Under the pieces are notes generated by a model. That model searched no databases. It was given only the letters and a program-made list of their open reading frames with translations, and had not been told where the DNA came from. The translations under genes and the position numbers were made by a program. From Allacma fusca (taxonomy: Eukaryota; Arthropoda; Collembola; Symphypleona; Sminthuridae): a DNA stretch of 64,000 nucleotides. Positions 4,342 through 63,825 of the stretch are shown piece after piece. The first letter of the stretch is position 1; the number at the start of each line of letters is the position of its first letter. The stretch is taken from the NCBI GenBank assembly GCA_947179485.1, contig OX359245.1, positions 52,501,067 to 52,565,066 on the forward strand. The letters run 5' to 3'.

Positions 4342-4492
4342 TAGGGTTTGTCGATTTTTAAATGCCATGGCATAAATGGCAAATTAGGCAGGCATATCTG
4401 GCAGGCATTTAGGGCATGTATTCACACGGGCTGCTGGCAAAAAATACCGGGCAGGCAAAATACCTAAGGCATTTAAAAATCGACAAACCCTA
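4342..4492. mobile_element. Short hAT-like MITE, AAATGCC/GGCAGGCA word family
   Basis: A 151-bp element. The ends are perfect inverted repeats of about 25 bases starting TAGGGTTTGTCGATTTTTAA. The flanks carry a perfect 8-base duplication ACTATGAA (4334-4341 and 4493-4500). The interior is almost only the words GGCAGGCA, AATGGC and AAATGCC. An 8-base TSD and a TAGGG end fit the hAT superfamily. It is too short to code. Confidence 0.85.
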
Positions 4493-4574
4493 ACTATGAA
4501 TAATATCCTGGTGTACGCGTGCGTGTCCCCTGTATTTTGCCTTTTCAATTGGCGAAAGATTTTTTATAGCTAAG

Positions 4575-4735
4575 GGCTTTGGGGTAGGGTTTCTGTTCGG
4601 GACGGGACCGAGATCGGGACAGTTTCGGGACAAAATTTTTGTCCCCATGTTATTTCGGGACTGAATCGGGAGGATTTTCTTGTCCCGAAGATTTCAGGAC
4701 GGGACGGAACAATAGATCGGGACAGAAAATTATAC
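4575..4735. repeat. GGGAC word-array repeat, copy 1
   Basis: Contains about ten GGGAC/GTCCC words in both orientations. It shares a core with 5925-6070 and 42949-43095: TTTTTGTCCC, TTATTTCGGGAC and GACGGAA in the same order. It probably forms one arm of an element whose other arm is 5925-6070, separated by the 4903-5916 insertion. I could not fix its outer ends or a TSD. Confidence 0.55.
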
Positions 4736-4902
4736 CTGTACAGTATACTATTGCTGTAAAAATGAATATGTATGGGAATGGTTCCATTTAAAATTAGTTA
4801 TTCCATATATAAATATTTTTTTAAATAAAATTTCGCTATTATTTGAGGTATTCTTGTAGAAATAAAGGAATTTGGAGAATTTCATAAGACTGGGATTATA
4901 AC

Positions 4903-5916
4903 CAGTGCTGCGATCGGGTCAAGTAATTTCAAAACTTGACCATGAACTTAACTTGACCACGAGACTTCAAGTAATTTTCAAGAGACAACTTGAACTTGGT
5001 AACTCGCGTTCGTGTAATTACTTGACTTGTCAAGTTCAAGTAATCAAGTAACTTTTGTAAGACCCGAACATGATCATGAACCTTAACTTGAACTTCACTT
5101 GACCATGACTTGAACGCGACTTTAACTTGATAATTCAAGTTAAGTATCACAAAAAATAAAACATGGCCACAATAACTTGTCGAACTTGCATCGGCAAATT
5201 ATTTCGTTCAGACTGAAAACCCAAACGCATTCAGTAAATAATTTTATTACTATTTTGTATTTAAAACCATTTGAGGACATCTTGGAGCGTATACTGAATA
5301 CAGTAACAGTTCGATATAATTGAACATACAATATCTAAAAGGGATTTTCCTTATAAAAACCGTCTAAAGGATTGTGTAAATGAAAGTTGGGGTCAAACAA
5401 ATGCATCCTTGATATCGATACATTCCTTATAAACTGAGCCCTTATAACGGACTTTCACTGTATATCTGACGAGTTTTACATAGTGCCAAGTTTTATTTAA
5501 TGCTCATATATACAGATCGTCATAAAACGGACTCTGATTTTGAATTTTGTCCTTTGATTTATGACATGTGCACACAAAATACCCTAAACACGGCATGCAA
5601 TTGGATTGTGATTTTGAAATTGCTTCCGTCCTTTATGGCAGGCACAATCTAAAATTACTTGAACTTGACCATGGAATCTCAAGTTCACGATCAAGTTTTT
5701 TCTTTTCATGACTTGACCCTGAACTTGACTTGAGGTTCAAGTAAATTCCCCTTAATTGTACTTGAACCTGACATCTTAAAATGTCATGCTCAAACTGAGT
5801 ACGTACTTGAACTTGACCCGAAAGATTCAAGTAAACAAATTGGCCTACTTGAACTTGACCCAAACTTGAACTTGACTTGAAAACTCAAGTATTACTTGAA
5901 CTTGTCCACAGCAATG
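4903..5916. mobile_element. hAT-like element, CAAGTTCAAG word family
   Basis: A 1014-bp element with a perfect 8-base TSD ATTATAAC (4895-4902 and 5917-5924). The ends start CAGTGCTGCGATC on the left and, reverse-complemented, CATTGCTGTGG on the right. Both arms (4915-5150 and 5640-5905) are arrays of CAAGT/ACTTG and AACTTGA words. The 500-base middle is AT-rich and unlike the arms. No transposase frame is visible. It sits inside the older GGGAC element. Confidence 0.85.
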
Positions 5917-5924
5917 ATTATAAC

Positions 5925-6070
5925 CGGGACGTCCCGTCCCGAGGTTTTCGGGACGGGACCGGGATCGGGAGAGTTCCGGGACAACATTTTTGTCCCTATG
6001 TAATTTCGGGACTGAATCGGGACGATTTTGTTTGTCCCGAGGATTTCGAGACGGAACAGAATTGCCGATT
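5925..6070. repeat. GGGAC word-array repeat, copy 2
   Basis: Begins directly after the TSD of the 4903-5916 element. It repeats the order of words of 4575-4735 in the same orientation (GGGACGGGACC, TTTTTGTCCC, ATTTCGGGAC, GACGGAAC). Sequence from 6071 to 6350 shows nothing recognisable. Confidence 0.55.
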
Positions 6071-6358
6071 AGGGAACTCCGGACTTTGTGCATTAGGTAT
6101 CGATACATAGGAAAAATTTGTATGTACATCAAACATGTAAGCCAATTTATAGGTTAAGACAGGTAGAACTCCGTCGGATAGAGATAACTTCGAAAATATC
6201 TATATTAGATGCAAGCTGGAAAATATTCAGAAATAAATGGAAATTATGCCTTAAGATATATGAAAATTAACGCGATAGGGATAACGGAATGTACACAATT
6301 GTGCGACGTGGGGAAGGGTGTCATCCATGCGTTGCGCGTCAGGCAAAGCAGCCTAAAG

Positions 6359-7115
6359 TAGAGGTGGGACCCGGAAGCAGGCTTTTTGGCCCGAACCCGA
6401 CCCGGCCGGGTTTTTGGCCGGGTTCGGGCAGCAAATACGAACTTACGTCGGGCTCCGACCGTGTGCGGGCTACACTAAAACAATGAAACCGGTTTAAGAT
6501 CGGGCTTGGGCCTGCATTTATTTTTCAGTTCAGGTTTCGGGCGGGTCAGGAATTACAAATGACCCGACAATTCTACTAGAATAGAATTTAGGACAGATAG
6601 GTGACATGCATATTTGACGTTGCGCATAGTTCAGACATTGCTTTCGTGTATACTCATGCTATAGGCGTTCACTGTATTTAATACGTACACATGCTTAAAC
6701 ATTTTGAAACGATGCTTTAAGCTTGATAGTTTATCTTCAAAAATTTTCAGGGCCAATAAGGTTTGCTCCGTGAGTGCACGTTTATTGAATGTGATGAGTT
6801 GGGATGGATAGTATATGTAAATATAATAGAATATGTAAATAAAGGTTTCACAGCCGATTCAATTGTTGCTAAAAAGCCAGGTTTTCATCGGGTTTTAAAA
6901 CAATTGAAAGATCGGGTTTTTAGCGGGTTCGGGCTGAAAAATTTTTTGATACCGGGTTTTTAGCTGGTTCGTGCTTCACATAATGTGAAGTGCATAAAAC
7001 GTGCCGGGTTGAGTATCGAATATTTAACCCGTTGGCGGGTCGGGTCGGGTTAATAGAGTGTTTGTTCGGGTTTCTTCCGGTTCGGGCCTGAAGTCAAGCC
7101 CTAATCCCACCTCTA
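6359..7115. mobile_element. hAT-like element, CCCGAACCCG word family
   Basis: A 757-bp element. Its ends are inverted TAGAGGTGGGA / TCCCACCTCTA. The flanks are GCCTAAAG and GTCTAAAG, an 8-base TSD with one mismatch (6351-6358 and 7116-7123). The left arm (6370-6560) carries CCGAACCCG-type words and their complement. The right arm (6880-7090) carries GGGTTTT and CGGGTTCGGGC words. No coding frame. Confidence 0.85.
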
Positions 7116-13513: not shown

Positions 13514-13515
13514 AA

Positions 13516-14091: not shown

Positions 14092-14834
14092 CAACGGTGT
14101 TCAAATGACTCTGCCTACCCTATATCCTTCCAATTTATAAAATCTTAACCGAGCCTACATATATGCCTACATTTTAACCGCCGAATAGACCAGCCTATCC
14201 TACATCCTTCCTATATGGGGAGCACCAAACCTACATATTTGCCTACATTTCATTGACAAATTAGATCAACAAATACTACACCCTTCCCTATGCTTTTCGT
14301 TACTGACAGACTATTTAAGAGCATTCCACTCTAATTAAAAACAATGTCTCAAGTCAATGGAATCGGAATAAAATAGTTAAGTCACCTTGGTCAAAGTTCC
14401 TAAGAGCGGAACAGTGTCGACCTCGCTTTGGATTGCGCCGGAAATAGTGCCCAAATTTTACAACGTTGGTCAAAAGGGATGTCACACTTAAGATTTCACA
14501 AATTAAATACCGCAAGAAACATTTCCAAAGTCAGCTTTATTATAAACGCAATAATTATTTATTTCAGTGGTATACAATCTGCAAGTACCAGTCGCGGATT
14601 ATTCTTTAATTTTCATTTTGCCCGTTCCATATACCATTAAATGAAAATGATGTGCTTCAATAGCCTACATATATGCCTATAAGTTTATGACGGCTGAGCC
14701 TACCTATTTTGTAGGCTAGGTTTGAAGTGTATATTCTTGCACCCTATTTTGCCTACAAGCCTCTTTAATAAAATCCTCGCACCCTATAATTAGCCTACAA
14801 GTAGGCCTATATGTAGGATAGGCGGACACCTTTA
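14092..14834. mobile_element. hAT-like element, GCCTACATAT word family
   Basis: 743 bp with a perfect 8-base TSD ATGTGTTC (14084-14091 and 14835-14842). The ends are CAACGGTGTTC and, reverse-complemented, TAAAGGTGTCC. Left arm (14115-14290) and right arm (14660-14825) are arrays of CCTACAT and GCCTA words, reversed in the right arm. The element at 61920-62800 uses the same words. Segment A2 (39340-39360) shows the site without the insertion. Confidence 0.88.
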
Positions 14835-15765: not shown

Positions 15766-16410
15766 TATAGCTCCTTATTGAGTGATTACCTTGCGGAACC
15801 GTACTCGAACTCGTAATCGAAATCGAAGCATCGAGTATGGACTCCAATCCAAGGTACTCGTACTCGCCACATATACGAGTACTCAGGAAAATACTTGAAA
15901 TAAGCGACCGAGTTCCAGTTCAGAACCCGAACTTGTTTCATACTCGCGAGTACGGAACTGTAAATACCAAAATCCCGTACTCGTACTCGTGCCGTGACTC
16001 GAGTCTTCATACTCGAGTATTTAATAATAACAAGACCACAATTGAACAGTGATTTTTTTTAGATTCATTTAATTTCTCACAAATAATTCCCTCAAAATTT
16101 TTAAATTGAACATGCAGTGCCTTCGTCTCTTTACTGGAAATTCAAAAGTTTGCAACACTTGTGTGCACGTGTACGCGTACTCGTATATTGAGCATGTGGT
16201 ACTCGAACTCGAACTCGATAACCCTTATGAGTATTTTTATTGGACTCGTACTCGTTTGATACTCGTACTCGTAAGTATGTGAAAAATCGTTACCCGTACT
16301 CGAAACCCATTTCAAGTATCGAGTATTCACAAAAATTTGACCGTACTCGACTCGAACTCGTACTCGTACTCGATACTCGCCGGTATACTCGAACTCGATA
16401 AGGAGCTATA
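15766..16410. mobile_element. hAT-like element, TACTCG word family
   Basis: 645 bp with a perfect 8-base TSD GTATGTAC (15758-15765 and 16411-16418). The ends are inverted TATAGCTCCTTAT / ATAAGGAGCTATA. Nearly the whole element consists of TACTCG, ACTCGAACTCG and CGAGTA words. Unit 4 (47893-47920) and unit 3 show the uninterrupted target. No coding frame. Confidence 0.9.
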
Positions 16411-16961: not shown

Positions 16962-19926
16962 ATGTTCAGTCCAACTAATATACCTCAGTGGAATGACTAC
17001 AATTTTTTCCCAAAAGATACAAATATAACTTCTGACAACAGCTTCAAGGAGAACAAATTAGCAACAAATGTTGTAATCTCCTCAATAAACAGAGGTGTAA
17101 AGTTGGGGAAATTTTTTCAAGGCCACCCATATATCTGGAATTACGAAACTGGTCGCGTGGAAGAGATCAAATCTGGCTGGCGATACATTTGGTTTTGCCT
17201 CAACACTTTTTATGGTTTGGCGTACGTTTCCTTTGTGGTTTTTAGATTCACACAGATCAGTATTCTCAACGGAGGGCCTCTTGCCACGCGGTTGTATATG
17301 CTATTTGTTACTTCGTTCTACCTGATCTTTCCCATGAACCAGTTAACATTGGTTTTTAAAACCCAAGAATTCTGCACCTACAGGAATCAAGTCACAGCAT
17401 TCTTGAAAGTGTTTGAAGGTAACATACATTAAACATTTAAAATACCTTTTCTGACTACATTTCCCATTTTTTTAAAAAGTGCTTCTCAAATATCTCGCTT
17501 ACTTTATACTTCATTAAAGTGCTTAACAGCATTGTACTGGCGGGCGTAGAAAGAGCTAACGTAATTTTGGTGTTTCATTCTATCACAATAAATTGTTCTT
17601 GGAAATAATCCATCATCAAAAAGTAGCAAAATCTTTGGCGTTAGGTAGTTTAAATTTGATTTACTGTGTATGAGGCCACATGTACATAGTTATACACAGT
17701 ACGTATAAAATTAAGTTAGTTAAACCACCTAAGGGAACATGCAGTTAGTTTTTTTGATAAATAAAAATATTAAAAAAGTAATAACATTTCGGGTTTTTAC
17801 AATGACGATTTCTTCGTTTCGGTATATTCCCACAATAAAATTGTCTGAAATTTTTAAAGCTTAAATAATGCAAAACTATTTGTTTTAAAGAAAATGGTTG
17901 TAAGTAAGTCATAATAGTTCATTACAATTTTCAGTGTGAACTACTATTTAATGAAAACGATTTCCCATGAAATTTGAAGCAACTCGTGTGCTTTGAAATA
18001 TTCTTAGTAAGACTCGGTAAAATGACAACATCATAAACTTATCGTCCCGTATTTTCTTCAATAACCGCGATACACTATTATATCTATTAAATACTTGCTT
18101 CTGTCTCCTTCAGTCATTTCCACACTGATCTATTAAATAGCTCCAAGTATCTAAATTTCATCAAATTTCATACATTGAAGTATTAACGCACTTTCTAATA
18201 AATATTTACGTGAGATTCAAAAAATGAACTTAATGAACATTGCAGGGATTGGATTTTTGTGGGAACAAGATAATATTCTTCCCACGAAGCAAATATTTCT
18301 GGCAGTCAAAATGCCAAATGGAAGGGATTATTTTTTGCGAGCAGGGATTTTAAAAATCGTTGACCTTTTTCTGGACAGGGATTTTCAAATTTGTTGGCGT
18401 GTTTCAAGGAAACACATATGTAAATCAAACGGGGAATTTTAGACTGGTTGATCTTATTAGGCAAGGGCTTGATGTCTTATAGAGAAATTATTTTTGCCGA
18501 CCAGGTATTTTTAAAATCGTGGACAGTGTCTTCAACAGGGATTTTTGAAATCGTTGAGGACCTCCCTGCAGGGTCATTATATTCAGCAGGGAAATTCAAA
18601 AAATATTCTTCCAGGGAGATTTACTAAATCCGGCCCGTGGAACATTGTGACTTTTAATATTGATCCGGATTGAAAAAGTTACATTCAGAATATATGAAGC
18701 TGAAGTTGCTACTGTATACCGGGAAATAAAATAATTTACGAACTGTCTTACACGCGGGATAGAAAACAAATGATTGTTTTATCCTTTACGCGTATTAAGT
18801 AATTACTACCCTTTTACTTTTCTGAGATTGAACCCGACGTCCTTTCACGCTTTCTAATCGTTTACTAAAAGGTTTTCGAGATGAGCGCATCGGAGGTAAT
18901 CGTAAGAACCACACAACCAAATCGGTCACTATAGGAATTGTAGCCATAAGAACACACATTATCGACTTTGTCTAGAAATCTAGTATATATGTAAGTATGA
19001 ACATACAGTTCTTAATTGTTGCATATTCTCTGGTTCTTTAGAATCTTACATGTTGCCATCAGCGCCCATGCCAAAACTTGTTAGAGTGTCTCCATATGTC
19101 TCAGCAGCCATAATGACATTAATAACTATAAATATAACTGGAATAACATTATCTGCCTACTTTCGTCCGGAGTCACCAGAATTTTTAACATCATTGCTTT
19201 CGGAACCTGAGTCCATACATTTTGGATGGAAAATTGCCTTTACAATTTTTCAATTCTACTTTGCATGTTTATTTGGTCTCTCAGGAGATTTCATCCTGAA
19301 CTCTATCGGCGGGTTGCTGTTCCCAATTTTGGAGGTCATCCCGGAACTGAGGTACAACATTATTCCAGAGTATATTCTAAGTGTCAAAAACATTTCATTT
19401 ACAAATGTTATAAAATTCAAGTCACATCATTATTTTTTGTAGCAGTTCAACGAATTCTAAGCTGACAACAAACAAATTGCGAACACCTGAATGTATGATA
19501 AAGATCTACAGACAGCTGAATCACATCGTATCTCTTTACAACCAATGCTTGTCATTATTATTGATGATATTGCAAGGCCTGGTAATTCTTCTTGTTGTCT
19601 CTTCTTTTTCGGGCATGCTGCTTACCCATGGAATACTCTCAGTTGTACTTGGCGTAGTTGGTTTGGATATGCTCGGGATGATTGTCACATTGGCCTATTT
19701 TTTAGCTGAATGCAACCTTCGATCTACGAATTTGTTGAAACATTTGAAATATCATGTTTTAACCGCCAGGCATAAGGACAGAGCTTGGTTGAGGAAGACT
19801 ATTCGAGCAACCCCAAGCTTGAAAATATATTTGGGCAATTTATTTTACTTTGATAAATTCTTGCAGCTCACTGTAATCAAAATTATATTCGAGAGTGCCA
19901 TTAATGTTACCTTGACCACACGGTAG
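16962..19926 (+). CDS. Seven-transmembrane chemoreceptor-like protein, copy 2 (intact)
   Basis: Three exons: 16962-17418, 19042-19351 and 19443-19926. Introns are 17419-19041 (phase 1) and 19352-19442 (phase 2), both GT-AG. Together they code 416 residues. I see seven hydrophobic segments, at roughly residues 74-96, 110-132, 170-195, 215-250 (one long or two close), 290-312, 318-345 and 385-410. The C-terminus has the layout of insect gustatory/odorant receptors: R-x-x-I-R ahead of P-L-K-I-x-x-G-N-L-F, then a last membrane span. Such proteins are plasma-membrane ligand-gated channels of sensory neurons; the ligand cannot be read here. The ATG at 16962 is chosen because it is conserved in copy 3 and an in-frame TAG lies just upstream. 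Family-level call only. Confidence 0.7.
18243..18639. mobile_element. hAT-like element, GGGATTTT word family, in intron 1 of copy 2
   Basis: 397 bp with a perfect 8-base TSD GAACATTG (18235-18242 and 18640-18647). The ends are CAGGGATTGGATTT and, reverse-complemented, CACGGGCCGGATTTA. The interior repeats GGGATTTT, AAATCGTTGACC and CCCTGC. A degenerate copy is in the same place in unit 4 (59215-59544), while unit 3 carries the target GAACATTTTAAC only once. The insertion therefore predates the split of units 2 and 4. Confidence 0.88.
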
Positions 19927-20952: not shown

Positions 20953-20960
20953 GCAAATAG

Positions 20961-21655
20961 TAGTGCATCGCATGGGTTCAAAACAGTCTAACCTGTATCT
21001 GAACCTGGACCCAAACTTTGGGTACCTCAAAAGCGTGAACCCGTACCTGAAAATGTATCCATTTCACAGGTTCAAATTTTTCGATCCTGAACCTGACCCA
21101 ATTGCGTTTTTGTAGTACCCGCACCTGATTAGTACCTGAACCCGAAAAAGTACCCAAAAGACGACCTGAACCCGGGTATTTTTGGACCGGACCTGAATAT
21201 GTTTGGGTACTTGAGAATCCAAACTTTTTTAAATTTTATCTTGTATTAAAAGTACAATTGGGTATTTGTAGTACAAAATATATTTAAAATGCATAAGAAT
21301 GAAAGTTCACTGGTTCCTGGGACACCCTGCCATTGCTTTTGCGATGGAAATCCTTTGGGAAGCTTGAATTCTCCGGCCTTTAACTTTCAATCAATGAACC
21401 CAAACATTTCAGGTCTTTTGCGATCAGGTTCAGGTCTTTTATGTGTTGCACCTGGTCCTGACAGGTAAAATCAAACCGGGTTTTTCTCTGTACCTGGTCC
21501 TGAACCTGAACCTGTACCCAATTTTACGGGTATAAAATATTGTACCCAGAAAGGACCCAAAATTATTGGGTCCAAAATAAATGAACCCATACTGAACCTG
21601 AACCTGGACCTGAACCCAAATACCCGGGTGCGACCTGAACCCATGCGATGCACTA
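20961..21655. mobile_element. hAT-like element, CCTGAACC word family
   Basis: 695 bp with a perfect 8-base TSD GCAAATAG (20953-20960 and 21656-21663) and a perfect 20-base terminal inverted repeat starting TAGTGCATCGCATGGGTTCA. The left arm (20990-21215) and right arm (21410-21640) are arrays of CCTGAACC, ACCTGAACCC and GGGTAC words. The middle (21220-21370) is different sequence. No transposase frame. Confidence 0.93.
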
Positions 21656-24015: not shown

Positions 24016-24416
24016 TAGGGATGCCAATCGTCTGGTCCGGACCATTTATAATGGTCCGTTATTGGTCTGGTCCGGTCTGATCCAAGTTGTGGACCAGACT
24101 AGATGCAATTGGTCCAGTATCAGAACCATACCAGACCAAAGAACCATGGTCCTAATCTTTCGCAAAATGACAAACTTATGGATTCTCGAAATCCCTTATA
24201 ATGTTTAAAATTGTTATTTTTAGGGATGAAATCAAAATTCCACTTAATAAAACATGATTATTTACTCACTCTTAAAGGTTTTCTGGACCATGGTCCGGAC
24301 CATGGTCTTTGGTCTGGTCTGGTCCGAAAAGTTGGACAAGACCAATAGTCTCGTCTTACCTTTGGACCAGACCAGTTTCATAAATCATGGATCAGACCAG
24401 ACCATTGGCATCACTA
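24016..24416. mobile_element. hAT-like element, GGTCTGGTCC word family, copy 1
   Basis: 401 bp. The ends are TAGGGATGCCAAT and ATTGGCATCACTA. The 8-base flanks GCAAACGC (24008-24015) and ACTTACGC (24417-24424) agree at five positions, so the TSD is decayed. The arms are arrays of GGTCTGGTCC and GGACCAGACCA. Segment B2 lacks it. The element at 47277-47684 is a second copy of the same family. Confidence 0.8.
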
Positions 24417-26045: not shown

Positions 26046-26129
26046 TATAGAATTAGAGAACAGGTACTCTAAAACAACTACATATATGAATTTAATGGCA
26101 TGTAAGGAAAACACGGCTCAAAGGATTGA

Positions 26130-26515
26130 TAGGTAAACTCCCAGTTCGTCACTCCCACTCCCGATCAGTCCCAGAAGGGCTGAGATACACGCAGTCCACT
26201 CAGTCCTTGCTTATTATAGCGTGAGTCCAACTCAGTCTCAGTCCCAATAAACTCTTTGGTCAAACTCCCACTCAGTCCCCAAGGATACAAAATAGCGCTA
26301 ATTTCCATCCTTGGGCTTTAATATATTATGGCACTAAAACTTAAAAATTGCTTAATATTGTATGCGCATCAGTCCCACTCAGTCCATCAGTCCATGCACT
26401 TGAATTAGTTCAATCCGTCAGTCCCACTCACTCTCAGTCCCAACTGTTTTCATACATATCAGTCCCACTCTCACTCCACTCCCTGTTTATCCACTCAGCC
26501 CCGAGAGAGACAATC
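26130..26515. repeat. CAGTCCCACT word array
   Basis: About twenty degenerate copies of CAGTCCCACT, ACTCAGTCC and CACTCCC, with a word-poor middle (26290-26360). Unlike the hAT-like elements the words run mostly in one orientation, and I found no inverted ends or 8-base TSD. It may be a decayed element or a locally expanded tandem array. Confidence 0.5.
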
Positions 26516-26820
26516 ACTTTTCCCTAACATTAGCTCAAAGTTCCCAGTTAGAGGCTCAATATGGCGAACCCCAATATGACGACAGGAAGTACTTGTAAAG
26601 CAAATGATGTTTGTATGACCTACTCAATGGGCATAACAAATGGTGAAGTTTAAAATATCTATGCCGCCCGATTTTGAATTTGTCTAATTTATTATAATTT
26701 ACAAAGCTTTATTTATCTATATAGTATATATGTTTAATATGCAAATAGGATAGTAAATAAAGTATTTTGGCAACACATACCTACATTCGTATTTACATTT
26801 TTCATATCGCAGTGGCTTTA

Positions 26821-27754: not shown

Positions 27755-28217
27755 AGGAACGTCACCGCATTGTACATATTTAACGTCCTTACGTTAACTG
27801 AACGTCCCAATGGACGCGCAATTTCTTAGCAAATGTCCGGAAGTCACCCGTCTCACAGACGATACTGATGATCGTCGCATCTACGTCCCAATGTACGTAC
27901 GTGTGAACATACCATTTAACGTACTTACGCCAATTTATTATGACTAAAATGTACTACAATAACTAATTGTTTGAATTAGGGCTTAATTTCCAAGGGATAT
28001 ATTATTGTATCAAATAAAATACAGCACGCGATACATCATTTTAAATCAATTATATTTTATTATAGAAACAGTTTCAATGCTGTCCACATGTAAAATGATT
28101 ACAAGAAGTGCATGTACATTTTAGGAGTCGTTGTTTGATACTCTTCCATCACTTGATTTAAAAATCCTACGCTTTGCATGTTTTAGCCAATATTAAATTG
28201 CGACTTATATGCCCTTA

Positions 28218-29563
28218 TCAGTAGGCCCAGGGTCCATTGTCCCTACTGTTTCTACGAAAAATCACACCAATATGTAAGTAAATACTATATCGATGAAGAA
28301 GTAATTTTGAGCATATTATTTGGATGCTTAACTTACTTCTTATCAAATGTACCAAAAACCTGTGCTTCTTCAATCCAGCCTTAGATGGCTGATTTTTGCG
28401 CACTACTCCCTTCCAATTAAAATGTGAAGCGACAAAATCAGTCATAATTGTTGCCAATTACCCTTTCCGTTGAGTTTTTCTCCCACCCAGTTCAAGCCAA
28501 GAAAGGAACCTGGAAAATTCAATTTTAAATCTAATTAATATTCGTGATTTGAAACTGCTTCAGTGAGCACATAAATCGAATACTACTTTTAATATAATAT
28601 AAAAAGCTTCCGAGTCAAAACTGTTTTCATTGACTGACTAATGAAGGATGCTTAAAAATTATTAATTCGTGATTAAATTAGTATAAAATTGCATTTAACT
28701 GCAATCACTAAGGTGTATGTCAAAAGTTGAAACGCTTTCGAATGTCTTCAACGGATGGTCAGGACATTTGTCTGGTTCTCAACAATAGAGAATCATGAAC
28801 TTTTCAGATTCTTTAAGAAATCCAATACTTCTTCTACTTTCCTCTCAATTCTCTCCAGCCGATGCAAAACAGACTTATCCACAGCTACGAATAAATCCAT
28901 ATTTCCGTATATATTATCCATATATCCATATAGCCGTTTATAAAATGGTTTATATGCCTGATGATATTACAGCCAATTTATTGAATTTAAATGGCTCAAA
29001 TATATATCACAGTTTGATTCGAAATTACCTGAAAACCGACTAACAGGAGTAGCTGAAGTCATTTTGCTCACAAATTATTCTTTGTGAAGATTACATGTAC
29101 TCCCCCCTGACTTCTGGTGGGGAATTCCATCGTATCCATGAACTTCAGTTACCACACCAAGTTGTACATTTTCCTGGCCGTTTTCATGTCGAAGTAATTG
29201 AAACAATTCTGTAGGCACCACCGGAGGATTAGGCAGATAATGTGCAACTTTCTTTGTCGGTTGAATTCCGAAATCTGACTCAGATGATTCATCTGAAGAG
29301 CTTGAACTCTTTTGAGTTGATGAATCGTTAGCAGCAGATATGATCTTACGCTTATTTGCTGAGACGTGAGATAAAGTTAAGCCGTTAGAATCCAAAGCAG
29401 AATTATTTGTTTCATCTCTCATGTACTCATCTTGTTGTGCTTGTACAGCTACTAAGTTAGCTACAATAACAAAAAAATATTTACGTTGACAATCCTGAAT
29501 ACTGAACATGTTAAACATAAATCGGCCAATAATTTGGAATAACTTACTTGATATGAACTTCAC
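28218..29563 (-). pseudogene. DUF4806-like second gene of the transposon
   Basis: Three pieces in order on the - strand. 29563-29075 has a Ser/Asp-rich linker and a nuclear-localisation-like KKVAHYLPNPP. The piece near 28900-28780 has a short coiled coil (HRLERIERKVEEVLDFLKN). 28457-28218 has FVASHFNWKGV followed by basic residues, resembling the start of the DUF4806 domain. This order (linker, coiled coil, DUF4806) is known from many arthropod and cnidarian proteins of likely transposon origin. The frames are interrupted, and the third piece loses sense after about 35 residues, so the gene is decayed or spliced in a way I cannot resolve. Confidence 0.4.
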
Positions 29564-30187
29564 AGAAATTAGGGTAGACTTCCACTAGTTGGAGCTAAAC
29601 ATCGTTTAAATGCTGAAAAGTACCGATTAGATCCCGGCCAATTGCAAGTTTTTAAATCCTCGCTAACACATCTCATAGGGAATATTTCACAGGGCGAGGT
29701 TCCATCTTAAGCTTTTTCACGTTCGAAGCTAACTAACACGAACGCTGCTGAAGCCATTACTAATGACTATGCTATATTAGCAAAAAAATAACATAATTGA
29801 ATATTTTAGTTTTGCAATGAGAAAAGGGAAACTTTTGAGACATGAATATCTATTTTATACGATGGTAGTAGGTAATCAAAATAGTTTCGAGCGACGAGTA
29901 ACGTTTTCCCAATTACTAAAATTCAGTTTATAGAAAATTGATAATTTGAAGAAAATCACCAGATCTTGTTTTGCAATAGGAATCTTTGCCGTTTGTCACA
30001 AAACTAAAATATTTTCCGACACACTTCCGAAATTGCTCCAAATATTTTAAACCCAGTGTAGGACCGTGGGAGCGTTACATTTGTAGTGACGGTAATAGGA
30101 CAGGCAATTCAGGGATTACGTGTGATTCTTCTGCTAATCGTCGATATATTTTTTGGAGGGGCTTATTTCCGGAACGAAATTTTTCTT

Positions 30188-37822: not shown

Positions 37823-38565
37823 TAGTGCGCCCACTATTTCAGTTCATTTAAAAAGATGTTTCGTTACAGTTTGGACGCTGAAATGAATCGAATTTATGGT
37901 CTCGTTTCAGTTTCCAAAAAAGTGTTCGTTTCAGTTTACTCTGAACTGAAACGAAACGGAAAACGATCGATTCAAACATTTAAAATGCTTGGCATTAAAT
38001 ACTTTATGACCCGGTATCGTATGTCTAAGTTCCTTCAACTTCAGACATGCTTCGAAAGGTAAATCTAGCCGTGGGTAGTTCGGATAACTCCAATCATTTT
38101 CCATGTCCAAAGCAGGATCCACCAGGACCCACAAAGTGTATCCTTAACCCCGTGGTAGTAAGTTCAATTTAAAATTTTACAAACGTCCACTTTCAAAACG
38201 TAATATAAATATACCTAGCTAATTTTCTTAAGTTATACAGACTTAAACTTTTTATTTTCTAATTCAGTATTCAATGGTTTCCCGAACCCTTCAACTGTCT
38301 AAAGACGATTTCATCACTCTATTCAATATTATATGGAGTCCACATGTACAAGAAATAAAAAATTTCGAAAGCAAAATGTTGGTGACAGCAGCATTTTTAC
38401 CGGTAGAATATAATTGCATTTGAAACGCGTTTCAATAAGAATGTTCCGTTTTGATCGTTGAGTCTAAGCTGAAACGCTTGTTTCAGTTAGCTTAAAACTG
38501 AACTTTAATTTTTATAGAGTGAACTGAAATAAACTGAAACGAAACGAAAATTTTCGGGCGCATTA
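37823..38565. mobile_element. hAT-like element, TGAAACGAAAC word family
   Basis: 743 bp. The ends are TAGTGCGCCC and, reverse-complemented, TAATGCGCCC. The flanks are ATTTAGAG (37815-37822) and ATTTGGAG (38566-38573), an 8-base TSD with one mismatch. Both arms are arrays of GTTTCAGTT, GAAACGAAAC and TGAAACG. The middle is unrelated sequence with no transposase. Confidence 0.85.
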
Positions 38566-39952: not shown

Positions 39953-40453
39953 TAGTGGTCGGATCGATTCAATTTGATTCGAATTTTTCAATTTGATTCA
40001 ATTTGAAGCTTGAATTGAATCGAAAAACCGATTTTCGATTCAATTTGCCCCAAAGCAATTCAATTCGATTCAATTCACTCAGTGAATCGAATTGAATTGG
40101 AAATCGAACGATTCAAGTGGGAAAATACAAAATTTTACTTATGTTACTGGAGTGTCGTATACTTATTGTAAAGGGCATAGTAAAAGCTATGCTAAAATAA
40201 CAAACGTTGTGGTATACGCAGTATTTCGACTTTGAATATGCGGGAAAAAAAGTACCCGTGCGTAGCCGAAGCGGTTTTGATGAATTGTTTGAATTGCAAT
40301 TCACATGATATGATTCGATTCAGTTCAATACCCAAATCGAATCATTCGATTTGGCTTTGCTGCAAATCGAATCGAAATACTACTGAATCGAATTGAATCG
40401 AATCGAATCGAATCAAAAATTTCCAATTCTGAATTGAATTGGTCCGACCACTA
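39953..40453. mobile_element. hAT-like element, GATTCAATTCGA word family
   Basis: 501 bp with a perfect 8-base TSD GAATATGT (39945-39952 and 40454-40461) and inverted ends TAGTGGTCGG / CCGACCACTA. The arms 39960-40110 and 40300-40445 are built of GATTCAATT, GATTCGA and AATTGAATC words. The TAGTG end and TSD length are classic hAT features. The middle (40110-40300) is different sequence without a long frame. Confidence 0.93.
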
Positions 40454-41694: not shown

Positions 41695-44600
41695 ATGTTC
41701 ACCCTAACTAATACTCCTCAGTGGAACAAATATAAATTCTTTATAAAAGACACAAATAATAAACCTGACAACAGCTTCGAAGAGAGGAAATTAGTAACAA
41801 ATTCTGTCATCTCCTCAATAAACAGAGGAGTAAAGTTAGGGAAATATTTTCAAGGCCACCCGTATATGTGGAATAACGAAACTGGTCATGTTGAAGAGAT
41901 CAAATCTGGCTGGCGATATATTTGGTTTTGCTTGAACACTTTCTATGGTTTGGCTTACGTTTCCTTTGTGGTTTTTAGATTCATACAAATCAGTATTCTC
42001 AAAGGAGGGCCTCTTGCCACGCGTCTGTATATGCTATTCGTTACTTCGTTCTACCTGATCTTCCCCATGAATCAGTTAACAATGGTTTTTAAAGCACAGG
42101 AATTCTGCACCTACAGAAATCAAGTCACATCATTCTTAAAAGTGTTTGAAGGTAACATCAATTAAACATTTAAAATTCTTTTGTAGCTTCCTTTCCCATT
42201 TTCTCAAAACGCACTTTTCAATTATCTTGCTTACTACAAAAAACATTGCATTTGGGGTCTGAAAATAATTGTCATGGTTTTGTTTTTGAATTTTATGACA
42301 ATATATTGTTCTTTCAAATAAGCAGGGTTGCTGATTTTTTTGATTTTTTTGAAAAAAATCAAAATAATCGGATTTATTTGATTTAAATCGGATTTTTTTG
42401 ATTTAAATCAATATTTTCTGATTTAAATTCAAAATTTTATCGTACAATACCATTACAATTACCTCCTAATAATATTGTACACTGTTGGTACTAATGATAC
42501 TTGAACAATTAAGAAAATATATTGAGAGAAAATTACAAAAGCAAGTTAACTACCTAATGAAATAAAAAGCTGGTTAAAGGCCAATTCCAAATATCAGCAG
42601 AATTGTTTGTAAATTGTAACAATTTCGAATTCAGTTTTGTATTTGAATCCAAACGCTGTATAGGACAAATACCAGCTATCTCATTTGGATTTTTATTGAT
42701 ATATACACTATATACACATTTCATAAAATGTGCATCTCAGTTGTGTTTTGGGAAGGGATGGTAGAGTATGTTGGGCAGAATTTGTTTTTGTAAATTGGGA
42801 ATATTCCATTTAAAATGTGCATATCTCTCCGTACAACATTTAAATTATGTATAAAATTTATAAAGCATAGAGTATAACATTTAAAAAATGCAACATTCAT
42901 ATTCAAATCTTGTCACTTGAAATGGTACTCTTTTAGAAAGATTGGATGTTGGGACGCTTTTGTAGATACTGAGTTTCTGATAGGGACGAGACAATTTTGG
43001 GACATAAATATTGTCCCGTGTTATTTCGGGACGAGATCAGGATACTTATTTTTGTCCCTGGATTTTGAAACGAGACGGAATCTTTTGAGACATAACAATT
43101 TTCCCCAGCAGAGGCTCTATTAATATACAATATTTCAAAACTCATTCACATCTAAATTTTATGGCACTGTGACAGCATGACAGATAATCAATATGGTTGC
43201 GTACCCAGATTATCCTGAAAATTATCAAAATCCAAAATGGTCTCATGACCAAAATTCGTAAAAACACAAAAATACACGTTTTACAACGTTTCGAGGCGTA
43301 CAATTACATTTTACCTAACCGCGAAAGTCGAATAGTCAATATTGATTTAAATCAGTGATTTATTTGAAAAAAATCAAGTGATTTAAATCTTGATTTAAAT
43401 CATGATTTAAATCAACGTGATTTAAATCAAGCCACCCTGCAAATAAGCGATCAATACAAATTAGCACGACAGGTTATTAGTGTTAGGTAGTGTAAATTTG
43501 ATGTACTGAATGTAAGAACACATTTATATCCATCACAATAGTTCATTTCAATATTCAACATGAAGCGTTATTTGATGCAAATGAATTCCCATGGAATTTG
43601 ATACAAGCCCTATGCTTTGAAATATTTTTAATAGAATTCACGTCATTCTGGGTAAAATAACAACATCCGAAGCGTATCGTGCCCTGTATTTTCTTCAATA
43701 ACCCCACAATGTTATTATAATAACTAAATTCTTGCTCCTGTCTTTTTACACCGACCTATTAAAAAGCTCCAAGTGAAGTTCACAAAATTTCATACAAAGG
43801 AGCATCAAAGCAATTTCTAGTAAACCTTTACGGGAGAAAGTAAAATTGAACAACTAAGCATTTCTAAAAACTTCTTCACTTATTTGAACATTTTAACTTC
43901 GAATTTTGACCCAGATTGAAGAATTTAATTTTAGAACATTTGAAGCTGAGGTTGCTATCAACCGGAGAAATCAGTGAATTTATGAATTGTCTTACACGCG
44001 ACTAAGGAAATGAAAATAATTAATTTAATCCTCTATGTATATTAAATAATTAAACATCTTGTGTATGTGTAAGCATGTATGTACATACAGTTCTTAATTG
44101 TTGCATAATCTCTGATTCTTTAGAAACGTACATGTTGCCAACAGCGCCCATACCAAAACTGCTTCGAGTGGCTCCATATGCCTCAGCAGCTATAATGACA
44201 TTAATAACTATAAATATAACTGGAATAACATTATCTGCCTACTTCCGTCCCGAGTCACCAGAATTTTTAACATCGTTGATGTCGGAGCATGTGTCCATAC
44301 ACATTGGATGGAAAATCACATTCACAATTTTTCAATTTTACTTTGCATGTTTATTTGGTCTCTCAGGAGATTTCATCCTGAACTCTATCGGGGGGTTGCT
44401 GTTCCCAATTCTGGAAATTATCCCTGAATTGAGGTACAACAGTATTCCAGAGTATATTTTAAATGTCAAGAATATTTCATTTACAAATGTTATCAAATTC
44501 CGTACACTTTATTATTTATTGTAGCAGTTCAAGGGATTGTAAGCTGACAACAAACAAACTGCGAACACCTGAATGCATGATCAAGATCTACAGACAGCTG

Positions 44601-47276: not shown

Positions 47277-47684
47277 TAGGAATGCCAATGGTCTGGTCAG
47301 GACCATTTATAATGATCCGTTAGTGGTCTGGTCCGGTCTGATCTAACACTTGCACCAGACCAGATACAATTGGTCCAGCTTCAGGACTAAACCAGACCAG
47401 ACCACATGACCATGGTCTAAAAATTGTGCAAAATAAAAATGTTTGTATCAAATCTCACAGAAAAGAAACAAATTAAAAAAGTTATTTCTGATAATAAAAT
47501 AATAATTTCACTAGATAAAATGTGATTATTTAATTGCACTCTATGGTTTTCTTTATCATGGTCTGGACCATGATCTTTGGTCTTGTCTGGTCCGAAAAAG
47601 TGGACCAGACCAATTGTCTGGTCTGATCCAGATTTTATGAAACTGGTCTTGTCCAAAACTCCAAGCAGACCATTGGCATCACTA
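47277..47684. mobile_element. hAT-like element, GGTCTGGTCC word family, copy 2
   Basis: 408 bp. The ends are TAGGAATGCCAAT and ATTGGCATCACTA, as in 24016-24416. The 8-base flanks TTTCCCAC and TTTCCAAA agree at six positions. Unit 2 shows the empty site (ATTTCCCACTACAAATTG). The arms are arrays of GGTCTGGTC and GGACCAGACC. Confidence 0.85.
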
Positions 47685-49232: not shown

Positions 49233-49640
49233 CAGGGGTCCGATTTTTGTAAATCTCCCTGGAAGTACATTTATGAATTTCCCTGCTGAATCAAATGTCG
49301 CTGCTGGAAGGTCCTTAACGATTTCAAAAATCCCTGCTGAAAAAAAGATCAACGATTTTCAAAATCCCTGTTGGCAAAAATAATTTCCTTTTTTTTATAA
49401 TTTTTCTGCAAGACGTCAAATCCTTGTCAAAAAAGGTCAACCAATCCAAAAATTCGTGTTTGCGTAACAAATTTCCCTAAAATATGCCAACAAATTTGAA
49501 AATCCCTGCCAAAAACAGATCAACGATTTTTAAAATCCCTGATTGTAAACTAGAATCCCTTACCTTTGTGATTTTCCCTGACAGAAATATTTTTTCCCTG
49601 GGAAGAATCTTCCCGTCTTCCCACAAAAATCCAACCCCTA
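49233..49640. mobile_element. hAT-like element, AATCCCTG word family, in intron 1 of copy 4
   Basis: 408 bp. The ends are CAGGGGTCCGATTTTTGT and, reverse-complemented, TAGGGGTTGGATTTTTGT. The flanks are ACTACAAG (49225-49232) and CCTACAAG (49641-49648). Words AAAATCCCTG, CCCTGCTG and GATCAACGATTTT are the same as in 18243-18639, in the opposite orientation. Unit 2 shows the empty site. Confidence 0.88.
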
Positions 49641-59066: not shown

Positions 59067-59214
59067 ATATCTACTAAATTCTTGCTTCTGTCTCCTTCGT
59101 TCATTTCCACACGGGCGTATTAAATAGCAACAAGTATGTAACGTTAATAAAATTTCATAGAAAGGAGTATTAACGCATTTACTAATAAACCTTTAAGTGA
59201 GATTACAATAATGA

Positions 59215-59544
59215 AAGGAGCCGGATTTTTGTGGGAACAAGGGAAGATTCTTCCCATGAAACTAATACTTCAGGCAGGCAAATTTTCAAATGTGAGGAAT
59301 TTTTAAAATCGTTGACCTTTTTCTTAACAGGGATTTTCAAATTTGTTGGCATGTTTCGGGGAAATATGTAATTCAAACGGGAATTTTAGACTTTTTGACC
59401 TTATTTGGCAGGGGTTTAAAAATCGTTGACCGTTTCTTTAGGAGGGGTTTTTGAATAGTTGAGGACCTCCCTGCAGAGATATATAATTCAGCAATTAAGT
59501 TCAAAAATAATCTTTCAGTGTGATTTACAAAAATACGGTCCGTG
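59215..59544. mobile_element. Degenerate GGGATTTT-family hAT-like element, shared with unit 2
   Basis: The same words (CCGGATTTTTGTGGGAA, GGGATTTTCAAA, AAATCGTTGACC) and the same flanks (GTGGAACAT then GGTGACTTTTAATATTGATC) as 18243-18639, but the ends and TSD are eroded. It is an orthologous insertion, not an independent one. Confidence 0.7.
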
Positions 59545-61770
59545 GAACATGGTGACTTTTAATATTGATCCGGATTGAAGAAATTCATTTCAGAACATTT
59601 GAAGCTGAAGTTGCTACTGTATACCGGGGAAATCAAATAATTTACGGACTGTCTTACACGCGAGCTATTGAAACGCAAATGATTGTTTTAATCTTTTAAG
59701 TATACTAAGTAATTATTATTACTCTTTTACTTTTCTGAATTAAATTCTGAGTCCTTAAATCGCTTTCTAATCGTTTACTAAAACGTATTTGAGATGAGTG
59801 CATCGGAAGTAATCGTAAGAACCACACAACCGCATTTGTCACTAAAAGAACTTCGTTTTAATTCGTACCTATACAGGAATCGCAAGAGCTATTGCAGAAA
59901 AATTGTAGCCCTAAGAGAACGCACGATCTAGAGACTTCGGCTAGACATCTAGTGTATAGTGCATATATAATTACATATGTAAGAACATACAGTTCTTAAT
60001 TGTTGAATAATCTCTGGTCCTTTAGAAGCGTACATGTTGCCATCAGCGCCCATGCCAAAACTTGTTCAACTGGCTCCATATGTCTCAGCAGCTACAATGA
60101 CATTTATAACTATAAATATAACTGGAATAACATTATCTGCCTACTTCCGTCCAGAGTCACCAGAATTTTTAACATCATTGCATTCGGAACCTGAGTCCAT
60201 ACATTTTGGATGGAAAATCGCCTTTACAATTTTTGAATTCTACTTTGCATGTTTACTCGGTCTTTCCGGAGATTTAATGATAACCTCTGTCTGTGGGTTG
60301 TTGTTCCCAATTTTGGAGATCATCCCGGAACTAAAGTACAACAGTAATTCTTCCAGAGTATATTCTAACAAGGTAAGATTTTGGGATGGTACAAGCCGAT
60401 TCAAACAAAGCATAGCACATGTTTGAGTACTCACCTAGTATGTTTCAAAACTCATGTAACTCGAGTGCATTTCGCCCCGTTCTCCTAGGACACGTCACCA
60501 AAGTTTCAAAATTTAAAACGATACCACAGGACCTGTCTTTTAAAAAAAAAGTTAATGTTAAATCCCATAAGGATTTTGAGTTTTTGAAAGTCGATGAAAT
60601 TTTGATTTTCACTATTTCAATGAAATTCAAGTTTTTACGTACATATTTATATATCCTGCAACAAAATTCCCCAATACGTAATTCCTCTATCATGGCGCAT
60701 CTGTATGTATGTTGACGATATGTTTTATTCACTCCATATTTAATTACTTATACAAGCGCATAAACTGGAATTTTCAGATTTACCCTTTGATGTACATAAG
60801 TATAACCAGGGTTACTCAAATGAAAATGTAATGGGTTTTATGAATGCCAACCCACCTGAAAATGCACTGAAAATGTGCTTGTCTGATAGTGCCCGGTATT
60901 TTGGGCATTTCAAGCGTATTGGTGACGTTAGCAGAAACATATGCACTGTTGTTGGTCGATCAGCGTTTTTTCCGGAGAATTTTGATATAATTGAGCCCAT
61001 ACAGTTTTAGAAAATTTTATTGTTAAGTTTATGAAAAATCAATATGCATAATTAATTAATTACATGGTAAGTGGTTTAAAAAATTTAGTTTTTAAGGATT
61101 TAAAAAGAGTTAGATTTTGAAATTGTGATTAACGCAGTGCCTGTGTAAGTTTCGAATTTTGATGACGACTATATTTAAATATTTTTAACAAAAATACACT
61201 AATTTTATAAACAGTTCAAAACTTGGAACTCATGTAACAATTTTTGGGTCGACTTTGAAAATTGAATTTTAACAGCCCAAGTAAGAAGCCTAGGAGTCAA
61301 AAATGTGACAATGCAAAAATTATTGCACATATGTAGATAACAGTTATTTAATCCTTGTTTGTCACATTTTTGTAAAAATGTGTTTGCCCGCTAAATGGTT
61401 AGGTGCAAACGAATTCTTACACCAAAAAAATAACAAATAATTATTATATTTTCCATAAAGTTGTCTGTTTCAATTTCAACTTCTAATTTACATACAGATG
61501 CGCCATGGTGGAGGAATTACGTTTTGGGGAATTTTGTTGAAGGATGTATAAATGTGTACGTAAAAACTTGAATTTCATTGAAAAAGCGAAAATCAAAATT
61601 TCATCGACTTTTAAAAACTCAAAATCCTTATGGGGTTTAACATAAACTTTTTTTAAAAAGACAGGTACCCACCTGTGGTATCGTTTTAAATTTTGAAACT
61701 TTGGTGACGTGTCCTAGGAGAACGGGGTGAAATGCACTCGAGTTACATGAGTTTTGAAACATACTAGGTG

Positions 61771-63825
61771 CCCAGCTAGCACTGAACGTCATAATGATAT
61801 CATTATTAATACATGAAATTCATAAACAGTTCATGTCTTTTTGATGAGGAGATTATGACTTCCAGTGGGCATCTTATCAATGAGCAATTTCTGACACGGT
61901 TCTGAAATAGTACATAAAACAAAGATGCTAAACTGATTTTGCCTATCCTACATCCTACCTATACATTCAGTTTAGGAGGGGCCTTCCTTCTTCCCTATTT
62001 GTGCAATTGCTAGGCCTATATCCTTGCCTACAAGTAGGCATTTGCCGCTGCCTACATTTCTGCCTATATAGGGTAACGGAAAGTGTAAGCCCCTTCCTAC
62101 ATGGGACCCTATACTGTAGAATTAAATTATATTTTGATTAAAATTCATAATTACATTTGCTGTCTTTATTTTAGCAAATTTATGATGGACATATAGCATT
62201 AGTTTAAAAAACAATTAGGCTATCCCTCATATGCAACAATTATTCAGCAAACACTCACAATTGTTTGTTACTTTCTTATGTATCATATTTTTAAGCAAAC
62301 TGCTTGTGAGTACTTCTTCAAAATTAATGTTACTCGTGCATTATGTGAAAACTCCTATTGATTGGTCGTATTGCATGTTACAGTAAGTATATAAGCATCG
62401 AGCAATCACATACAATATATGTATATGTACTTAGTTATGTATGGATATTATTTTGAATGGGAAATCTCACATGTCCCTACAGTAGCCTGATGTTCCAACG
62501 TAGCCAACGTTCAAAAATCGTTTTGGTTAGCATTGAGATAACTTATTCCATAATGAGAAAATAGTTATGTACATACATATGTACATCCTACATATTTGCC
62601 TTCATACAAGCGCGTTTTCGTGCTGCCTACATATATGCCTATATGACCGCGTGTATGCAGGCGTGCATTCCTATTTTATAGGCATTTTTTCTGAGAAAAC
62701 CAGTGCACCCTATTTTGCCTATAATTTTTTCTGCAAATAGCTCGCACCCTATAAATAGGCCTACATGTAGGCCTACATGTAGGATAGGCTAGCATCTTTG
62801 ACATAAAATATTACGGATTCTGGGGTTCTTCGTAATGATTTCAGTATGCCAGGGCCAGATTGAACTGGCCTCATAATCTTGTCATTTTCCGTAAAAATTA
62901 TGAAATGACTTTTTGCGCATGCTTACTGGGAGGGCGCGAGACCAGTGCAGGAATAAACTTAACCAATAATTTCTAGTTGGTTAATTAGTGGTGTGCCTTC
63001 ATCGTTCCTAATTCACTTAAAAGTATTAATTTTTAAACGTGAAATAAATTACCTTAGTGTGTCAATTTGTTTGCCGAGATTGTGAGTGAAGGACAGTACA
63101 TTTTAATTATACCTCACGAATTTTTAAACTTTGGTAATTAGTGAAAAGAAGTGAGTTAAACATATACAAATACATATAGTGCATACATACTTACACCTTA
63201 CACTTTGAATAAGAGCATTCAACACAATATTTTTGTTTACATTTTTCATCTGAGTACAATTAACAAAAAATCCACGTGTTTCCTCTATACGAATCAAGCC
63301 TCGCATTTATACAGTTACAATATACTGTCTTGAGTGTAATTTCGTTCTATAATTTAAAATAAGGGTGTTTTACATTTGCGGTATTTTTGGTGGAAGGGAA
63401 TTCGTGTGTAGATGGACGAAAAAGTGTTTTATTGGAAATATTTAATAAAAAATGTTTATTTCCGATCATTATATTTATTGTGGCTTTGCTTTCATTGTAT
63501 ATGCATATAGTTGTATGTAGTTGGAACTGTCTAATTACTATCGAATTTGTATATGCCGTACACGAGGTAGTGGTAGAATAAATTATTTGATTACTGTTAG
63601 AGGGAAGCACTGTTGCCTCATAATCTGGTCATAATTTCCCCGCACGCATGAAATATCTTTGATGTCATTACGACAGCTTAATGAGCCGAATAAGCGGACA
63701 TTTCAGGATCATAGTGGTATCGTTTTGATTTCATTATGAAAAAGTGATGTTGTCATTTTGAATAGTACCCTACAGTGCCACTGAAGTCATTCTGAAATCA
63801 TTATGTTCTTCCAGTGCTAGCTGGG
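61771..63825. mobile_element. CCCAG-ended DNA element, TCATTATG word family
   Basis: The ends CCCAGCTAGCACTG and CAGTGCTAGCTGGG are perfect 14-base inverted repeats. The flanks are TG on both sides (61769-61770 and 63826-63827), and the continuous arm of the host element (CTAGG-TG-AGTACTC) explains the join. The subterminal parts repeat CATAATGA/TCATTATG and CATAATCT words. The interior has no convincing transposase frame. The terminal bases and TSD length resemble the element at 1287-2759. Confidence 0.7.
61920..62800. mobile_element. hAT-like element, GCCTACATAT word family, second copy
   Basis: 881 bp with a perfect 8-base TSD ACATAAAA (61912-61919 and 62801-62808). The ends are CAAAGATGCTAAACTGATTT and, reverse-complemented, CAAAGATGCTAGCC. 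The arms 61940-62110 and 62590-62790 are arrays of CCTACAT, GCCTATA and TAGGCC words, as in 14092-14834. It is the innermost level of the nested insertion. Confidence 0.92.

Follow-up and report, generated by a model that had tools for sequence, protein, structure and literature searches.

Elements of the window

The DNA analysed here (the window) is a stretch of 64,000 nucleotides of the Allacma fusca genome, contig OX359245.1, positions 52,501,067 to 52,565,066 of assembly GCA_947179485.1; coordinates are counted from its first letter. It carries short hAT transposable elements whose arms hold degenerate arrays of a short word that differs from family to family, very probably docking repeats for the transposase of the family. 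The initial annotation had listed fifteen elements with inverted ends and 8-base flanking duplications, and their starts are designated E1 to E15. For each start, ends were searched up to 2600 bp away, with target-site duplication (TSD) and terminal inverted repeat (TIR) scored together. In all fifteen the best border within 3 bases is the given start itself, and the duplications are mostly intact: 8/8 in ten elements, where nine or more had been proposed as perfect, 7/8 in three (6359, 37823, 49233), 6/8 at 47277 and 5/8 at 24016. The combined score is at least 19.5 in 15/15 elements and in 8/150 random starts (at least 20 in 4/150), although seven of the fifteen do not exceed the best random-start score, 21.5. 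A scan independent of the list, for exact 8-bp TSDs with a TIR, returns 17 pairs, of which seven are listed elements; 30 Markov sequences yield 3.0 on average. The consensus for hAT tips is YARNG, which is matched by 23/30 tips and by 1.2% of window positions; E5 and E9 miss it at both. The 8-bp duplications and these tips support a hAT identity, and E9 carries the domain PF05699.

E1 (4342..4492, 151 bp) has a 14/14 TIR and the TSD ACTATGAA (8/8), and its array is not significant at k=6. E2 (4903..5916, 1014 bp; TSD ATTATAAC, 8/8) holds 33 copies of ACTTGA and is bordered on either side by CGGGAC-word sequence, fragments of which at 4585..6100 are candidate pieces of another element. E3 (6359..7115; TSD 7/8) carries AACCCG/ACCCGA, E4 (14092..14834; TSD ATGTGTTC, 8/8) GCCTACA, and E5 (15766..16410; TSD GTATGTAC, 8/8) 23 copies of CGAGTA/TACTCG. 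The words of E6 (18243..18639; TSD GAACATTG, 8/8) are CAGGGA/AATCCC, that of E7 (20961..21655; TIR 14/14, TSD GCAAATAG, 8/8) is ACCTGAACC, and that of E8 (24016..24416; own TSD 5/8) is GGTCTGGTCC. E9 (32168..33476, minus strand; TSD CGTCAAAT, 8/8) combines the words AACGG/ATAACG with a C-terminal transposase remnant at 32423-32911. Beyond it lie E10 (37823..38565; CGTTTC/ACTGAA, TSD 7/8), E11 (39953..40453; AATCGAATTC, TSD GAATATGT, 8/8) and E12 (42323..43439; GATTTAAATC, TSD CAAATAAG, 8/8), the interior of which holds CGGGAC-word sequence near 42980-43100. E13 (47277..47684; TSD 6/8) is of the same family as E8, E14 (49233..49640; TSD 7/8) is an E6-family copy in reverse orientation, and E15 (61920..62800; TSD ACATAAAA, 8/8) belongs with E4. 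With these three pairs joined, the fifteen elements make up 12 families. Apart from E9 they contain no open reading frame (ORF) of at least 150 amino acids, as is expected of non-autonomous copies. The elements are best explained as short representatives of hAT families, about 12 in number, and are mostly non-autonomous, of the miniature inverted-repeat (MITE) or Ds-like kind. To the earlier list can be added E16 (26124..26532; word CAGTCCCACT), with a candidate TSD GCTCAAAG (8/8) and a TIR matching at 8/12 positions, in which CAGTCC lies on one strand in 11/11 copies.

Insertion sites and genome copies

The window contains a multi-exon gene in tandem copies, and its duplicated flanks are usable as empty sites. 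At seven of the fifteen elements the joined flanks align through an uninterrupted paralogue. A single copy of the TSD aligns without a gap at E4 (empty site 39259-39446), E5 (41053 and 47791), E6 (43749, 68% identity), E12 (17525 and 48973) and E13 (15384 and 40810); the alignments of E8 (37257) and of E14 (17611, with 5 bases absent) are gapped at the junction. The empty copy of the E13 site has TTTCCCAC once, consistent with a decayed 6/8 TSD.

Copies of four families (E4, E5, E7, E8) were examined in a genome of 392.7 Mb in 91 contigs. The TSD is 8/8 in 11/11 copies of the E7 family (two have one TSD in common), in 11/11 of E5, in 5/7 of E4, where both misses are truncated copies, and in 14/20 of E8 (at least 7/8 in 17/20; three of the 20 have one TSD in common). 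Since the genome copies have such TSDs, the family of 24016, whose own duplication is the weakest of the fifteen, is confirmed. All 40 scored E7 copies, from 1267 candidates, are full length at 98-100% identity: the E7 family is very young. Full length is also kept by 39/40 scored E5 copies (93-100% identity). The initial annotation had allowed that the arrays might be ordinary satellites, without matching TSDs in other copies; the genome copies dispose of this. Long head-to-tail arrays without TSD bounds, the hallmark of a satellite, occur neither in the window elements nor in the genome copies, and Tandem Repeats Finder reports short arrays only. These are transposon families rather than satellites.

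Private words in the arms

The best 6-mer of an element exceeds the maximum of 100 dinucleotide shuffles in 14/15 elements, E1 being the one that misses, and the best 8-mer does so in 10/15; the proposed word arrays in the arms are thereby borne out. Among 25 random 600-bp control segments (30 shuffles each), two pass at 6-mer and two at 8-mer (segments 25280, 25463, 46214). In a blind scan 172 of 1596 scan windows are hot; the counts for five Markov sequences are 2-9. Fourteen of the fifteen elements have hot scan windows of their own (E1 has none), and 45 lie entirely outside the fifteen; five further regions account for 25 of these, and the other 20 lie elsewhere. In the matrix of word coverage the high values fall on the diagonal and between elements of the same family, the main exception being the words of E7, which cover 16% of E3.

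The arrays lie in the arms. Both middle deciles are covered to 15% or less in 13/15 elements (the exceptions are E1 and E15), contrary to the proposal that the arrays have grown to fill whole elements. The outermost exact word stands 9-21 bp from the tip at 26/30 ends, the innermost 43-640 bp from it (median 208), and the word-free cores measure 38-483 bp. Autocorrelation in 13 elements places a lag of 5 or 6 bases first or second in eight and a lag of 12 bases in three. Single-strand folding of the 30 terminal 90-mers has a mean z of -1.75, with 11 below -2, and -0.10 with four below -2 in 60 controls; the mean includes the values -7.6 and -5.2 of E12. By analogy with the first two subterminal repeats of Hermes (STR1/STR2), this folding fits a pairing of inverted words near the tips.

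The two arms do not mirror each other. The word had been described as reversed in the opposite arm, and that polarity is rejected: between halves, same-strand pairs of the top word outnumber opposite-strand pairs in 11/15 elements, equal them in three (E10, E11, E13) and fall short in E8, while the second word gives an excess in 10, ties in three (E8, E13, E14) and a deficit in two (E9, E10). Several of these margins are small, and the same-strand tendency is seen in two element sets, those of the window and the transposase-bearing set described below.

That the words differ completely between families is right in that each is private, but wrong in its completeness. When E16 and the CGGGAC family are counted in, the window has 14 families, and of their 91 pairs of top words 12 differ by at most one mismatch, where the null mean is 6.7 (P 0.033; for two mismatches or fewer, P 0.10). 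The pattern AYYYGA is common to E2, E3, E5, E7 and E11 at 13-39 per kb; its density is 5.2 per kb outside the elements and does not exceed 9.8 in any other element. It was spotted before its test and so stands as a lead.

Viral contigs were considered as a further home of such arrays, and rejected. Two exact word patterns yield 26 and 13 stretches, all 39 of which were screened for word density; the two densest for ACTCG (L003, L018), which were then read, turn out to be a coding repeat rich in serine and threonine and a simple repeat, and their best TSD/TIR pairs are weak. A profile of the E9 domain finds no relative in viral contigs.

Transposase-bearing relatives

The hAT dimerisation domain of E9, PF05699, matches with E 1.9e-11 and is present in the three database relatives of E9 too. 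In a genome search for this domain, 150 of 860 candidates were scored, all above the cut-off. A word cluster lies within 1500 bp downstream of the domain in 25/30 loci and upstream in 5/30; as there are near-identical copies among the 30 loci, and mostly coding sequence upstream, these counts are only a lead. Ten loci were picked for differing domain groups and words; a downstream cluster also weighed in the choice, but the left arms did not enter into it. Borders were obtained at seven of the ten, giving elements of 3.3-4.9 kb that span the hAT domain, and none settled at L052, L063 and L072. The top-ranked border pair has an 8/8 TSD at L057, L055, L061, L071 and L073, as does the second-ranked pair at L050; at L062 it is the third-ranked pair, with a TSD of 7/8, and the element lies inside a copy of the E11 family, the borders of which come next in rank.

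The words of the seven are AAGGCA, TAGGAA, CCTTCA, CGCTCA/CCCTCA, CTCTAC, CGGATA and AGTTCA. Words taken from the right arm cover the left arm of the same element to 12, 14, 14, 21, 41, 49 and 23%, and any other left arm to at most 9%; words from the left arm cover the element's own right arm to 13-48%, and any other right arm to at most 7%. Coverage of the element's own core is 0-3.2%. Same-strand word pairs are ahead in six of the seven and behind in L055. Dense private words thus also belong to transposase-bearing hAT elements, seven of which have them in both arms. Four near-identical transposases (L050, L051, L053, L068) have one word in common. The closest pair of dimerisation domains, those of L057 and L062 at 78% identity, goes with the words AAGGCA and TAGGAA, and the mutual coverage of these two elements, 8.4%, is the highest.

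The pairing of each window family with an autonomous copy, as envisaged in the initial annotation, succeeds in part: seven transposase-bearing elements with private words are in hand, but no window family's word is the top word of any of them. A window word and transposase sequence stand together only in E9, and there with the C-terminal end only. Words of E2, E11 and E14 near the domain at L057, L062 and L067 were considered as partners, rejected and not counted: at L057 the word sequence is the left end of an E2 element, a separate insertion; at L067 a whole E14-like copy is likewise a separate insertion; and at L062 the transposase element is nested in the E11 copy.

Two further observations concern these loci. 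At L062/L079 (contig G000:C5, about 36927511-36931711) the TAGGAA-word transposase element and the E11-family copy around it both have 7/8 TSDs. From L086 2348 to L071 (contig G000:C9) runs a hAT element with a 14/14 TIR, an 8/8 TSD, the hAT domain and a partial BED match, in which CGGATA arrays make up about half of both 300-bp arms.

Conservation of the words

In pairwise comparison a position was counted as word if either copy has a word there, and was set against the spacers of the arms. Between E8 (1-341) and E13 (1-348), with the right 60 bp and its inverted block excluded, identity is 124/141 in words and 95/133 in spacers, a difference reached by 1/120 neutral simulations. For E6 and E14 the figures are 95/107 and 128/165, and for the right arms of E4 and E15 82/93 and 30/59, each reached by 0/120. 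When 22 E8-family copies are compared, the word columns have a diversity of 0.068, the spacers of the arms 0.102 and the core 0.138, and a tree-based neutral null reaches the difference between words and core in 0/100 under both definitions of a word column. We take these results together to mean that the arms are constrained between rounds of transposition, and the words probably most of all.

The arrays also change. A block of 48 bp (E8 24361-24408, E13 47610-47657; 89.6% identity) lies in opposite orientation inside otherwise collinear arrays; it is a small inversion, the ends of which fall in copies of the word. E4 and E15 have in common a right arm (169 bp, 74.6%) and the words of the left arm, and differ in their cores.

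Other elements and genes

A CACTA-like element with candidate borders (27757..33543, minus strand) has ACGTC repeats in both arms, four in 204 bp and seven in 297 bp (limits by eye), while the 3970-bp core has four, at background, against an expectation of 3.7; E9 sits within its right arm. Its ORF at 30191-30991 has no Pfam match of its own. Of five relatives scanned, three match PF13960 (DUF4218) and one of these also PF02992 (tnp2), all below the cut-off; PF13960 is precomputed in 5 of 120 relatives listed. Among the closest named proteins listed is one of Allacma fusca, matched at 73/83 residues, slender evidence from a single transposon protein that the DNA may be of a springtail. In a Gypsy pol search the best of the 120 matches listed, out of 759, stands at 36% identity, and none of the 120 bears the name Allacma. 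Neither CACTA tips nor a 3-bp TSD appear in the six best inverted pairs of the element, and because its borders are candidates it is labelled CACTA-like only. An element with AACGCT/AACGTT arms at 1287..2759 has the 12/12 TIR CCCAGTAAACCA and lacks an 8-bp TSD. The region 25560-25990 holds the words TGTCCGTACGTCCGA and TCGAAA.

Copies of the tandem multi-exon gene lie at 540-1058, 16948-17442, 18988-19926, 41681-42175, 44070-45008, 48436-48931, 59972-60341 and 63888-64000. None of them has a Pfam match; we take the gene to resemble an arthropod gustatory receptor. A second E6 copy (E6b, 59200-59570) was spread by segmental duplication of this gene unit and served as a control for passive decay. 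At 60373-63893 nested inverted-repeat elements appear, by eye, to split a gene exon; their inner inverted pair (60467-61735) matches at 39/40 bases. A long terminal repeat (LTR) retrotransposon at 7614-13889, presumably of BEL/Pao type, has identical 374-bp repeats (7614-7987 and 13516-13889) and an ORF bearing DUF1759. Another, at 50033-58846 or beyond, matches reverse transcriptase, integrase and CCHC domains. Its end repeats, which are nearly identical, stand 8514 bp apart, and it has an additional 631-residue ORF (50918-52813) without a Pfam match.

Probable docking repeats and the alternatives

The plan common to these elements is a precise insertion that duplicates 8 bp, short TIRs, a degenerate array of a private word behind each TIR and a word-free core. 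We consider it very likely that the arrays are docking repeats for the transposase of the family, as in Ac and Hermes. By analogy with those two, the transposase would dock on the words through its BED zinc finger. Many weak sites would capture a multimeric transposase by avidity, the array would give each family its specificity, and the catalytic core would use the tip. Words might then turn over by substitution, by gain and loss of units and by occasional inversion, as between E8 and E13, together with the transposase. The differing though similar words AAGGCA and TAGGAA at domains 78% identical fit the turnover of words with transposase that the initial annotation proposed. Over 21 pairs word similarity does not correlate with domain identity (Spearman 0.15, P 0.51).

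In favour of docking count the TSD/TIR borders, the duplications at the genome copies, the empty sites, the hAT domain of E9, the private words of the transposase-bearing elements, the partial BED match in L071, the better conservation of words in older copies, the folding of the terminal 90-mers and the precedents of Ac and Hermes. Several results weigh against it. E1 is without an array, and E6, E9 and E14 beat their shuffles by a single count. In 413 pairs from 12 elements no listed period, 10.5 included, stands out against shuffled inter-word intervals (z peaks at 1.7, for 6.0), so that helical phasing is not seen. No BED finger was found in E9, in the one frame scanned, or in the upstream parts of L057 and L050. 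Upstream of the hAT domain of L071 there is a partial BED match, at 20.1 bits below the cut-off of 20.6, and the role of the finger in docking is drawn from analogy. Hermes itself kept about 70% of its activity with interior putative sites mutated (PMC10368747). As to conservation, simulation gave E8/E13 pairs of lower identity than the real one (0.71 against 0.78), and E6 and its passive duplicate E6b show no difference between words (56/68) and spacers (123/162; P 0.30). In the E8 family, words against spacers give P 0.03 when at least two rows define a word column and 0.31 when half of the rows do; with words against spacers weak and words against core strong, part of the constraint falls on the arms as a whole. 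Variable columns in copies of E4, E5 and E7 (13/181 in words and 12/163 in spacers, 13/263 and 16/201, 9/325 and 2/214, respectively) are not significantly different. If these young copies have merely decayed since their burst such a null is expected, yet it lends no support.

A wider reading is tentative. At least 19 families (those of the window and the seven transposase-bearing elements) might represent a hAT radiation in which the same-strand word of the two arms serves as an address code that outpaces the dimerisation domain, partly by near-neighbour steps such as those within AYYYGA (ACTTGA, ACCTGA, ACCCGA, ACTCGA, ATTCGA). Were it true, a BED recognition code, and any part of titration by non-autonomous copies in changing it, could be read from one genome. 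A more general question is how the transposase families of one genome avoid mobilising each other's elements. The distinct dense words, with transposase genes in some elements and many short relatives, are a panel for testing word specificity and its change. An annotation based on TIRs only would miss the word-array part of the element.

The notion that this change is driven by an adversarial arms race, in which non-autonomous copies titrate the transposase, which escapes to new words while BED domains turn over, is in our judgement unlikely. Many private words coexist, the short elements are very numerous (the 1267 E7 candidates), words already differ at domains 78% identical, and five families fall within AYYYGA, a pattern seen post hoc. 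However, word similarity does not follow domain identity over the 21 pairs, and neutral co-drift or separate arrival of the families would give the same pattern.

It is distinctly improbable that the arrays are mutational by-products, degenerate repeats expanded by slippage and template switching that transposition only copies. The short steps and local tandem runs, the 48-bp inversion between E8 and E13, which is a rearrangement of just this sort, and the three young families without constraint on their words are what such a process would leave. It does not account for one private word in both arms that is absent from the core between them, in transposase-bearing elements too, nor for words that are better conserved than spacers in the older pairs and, in the E8 family, better than core sequence, and the arrays found by Tandem Repeats Finder are short. 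That a host factor binds the words, or that they act as signals in regulation or silencing, is highly improbable: transposase binding does rest on analogy, and Hermes may use host DNA-bending proteins (PMC10368747), but one host offers all families the same factors while their words differ, and the precedent of Ac and Hermes is transposase binding.

Comparison with known systems

In Ac the terminal ~200 bp are needed, and AAACGG repeats are bound cooperatively by the transposase (PMC3260210). Ac/Ds resembles the present elements in its 8-bp TSDs, its repeated hexamers and its non-autonomous copies, which keep the ends and swap the cores (PMC3260210); Ds2 keeps Ac ends around other filler (PMC3260210), much as E4 and E15 share arm words but not cores. 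Ac/Ds differs in having one word, three copies of which were shown to be required; the window has about 12 words in its 64 kb, and an element of 1014 bp can hold as many as 33 exact copies of one.

AAG(T/C) repeats are the binding sites of the BED domains in Hermes, a housefly hAT element that needs about 220 bp of each end (PMC10368747). Its short subterminal repeats (STRs) are partly palindromic and start just inside the TIR, like the arrays described here (PMC10368747); its site differs in being one of four bases, AAG(T/C), with 17 and 14 occurrences (PMC10368747). The left-end STR2-7 are labelled antisense and the right-end STR1-5 sense (PMC10368747). The ends of Kat1, a yeast hAT, offer a conserved hexamer, TGAATT, in 6 copies (12 at 5/6) between the TIRs; Kat1 differs in being a domesticated single locus with fewer repeats, whose polarity is said to differ between the ends (PMC4763223).

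Outside hAT, the CACTA elements (En/Spm, Tgmt*) have private subterminal motifs, TNPA-like binders and divergence between families of one species, and co-divergence of the subterminal repeats and their binding protein has already been proposed for them (PMC2613891). They differ in belonging to another superfamily, with a three-base duplication and a separate DNA-binding protein. That most hAT elements have subterminal repeats is likewise already published (PMC10368747). A literature search, with most subscription journals outside it, found no description of hAT families with dense private words. Nor did that search turn up a set of hAT families within a single genome in which each family has its own dense word in the two arms, for the most part in one strand orientation.

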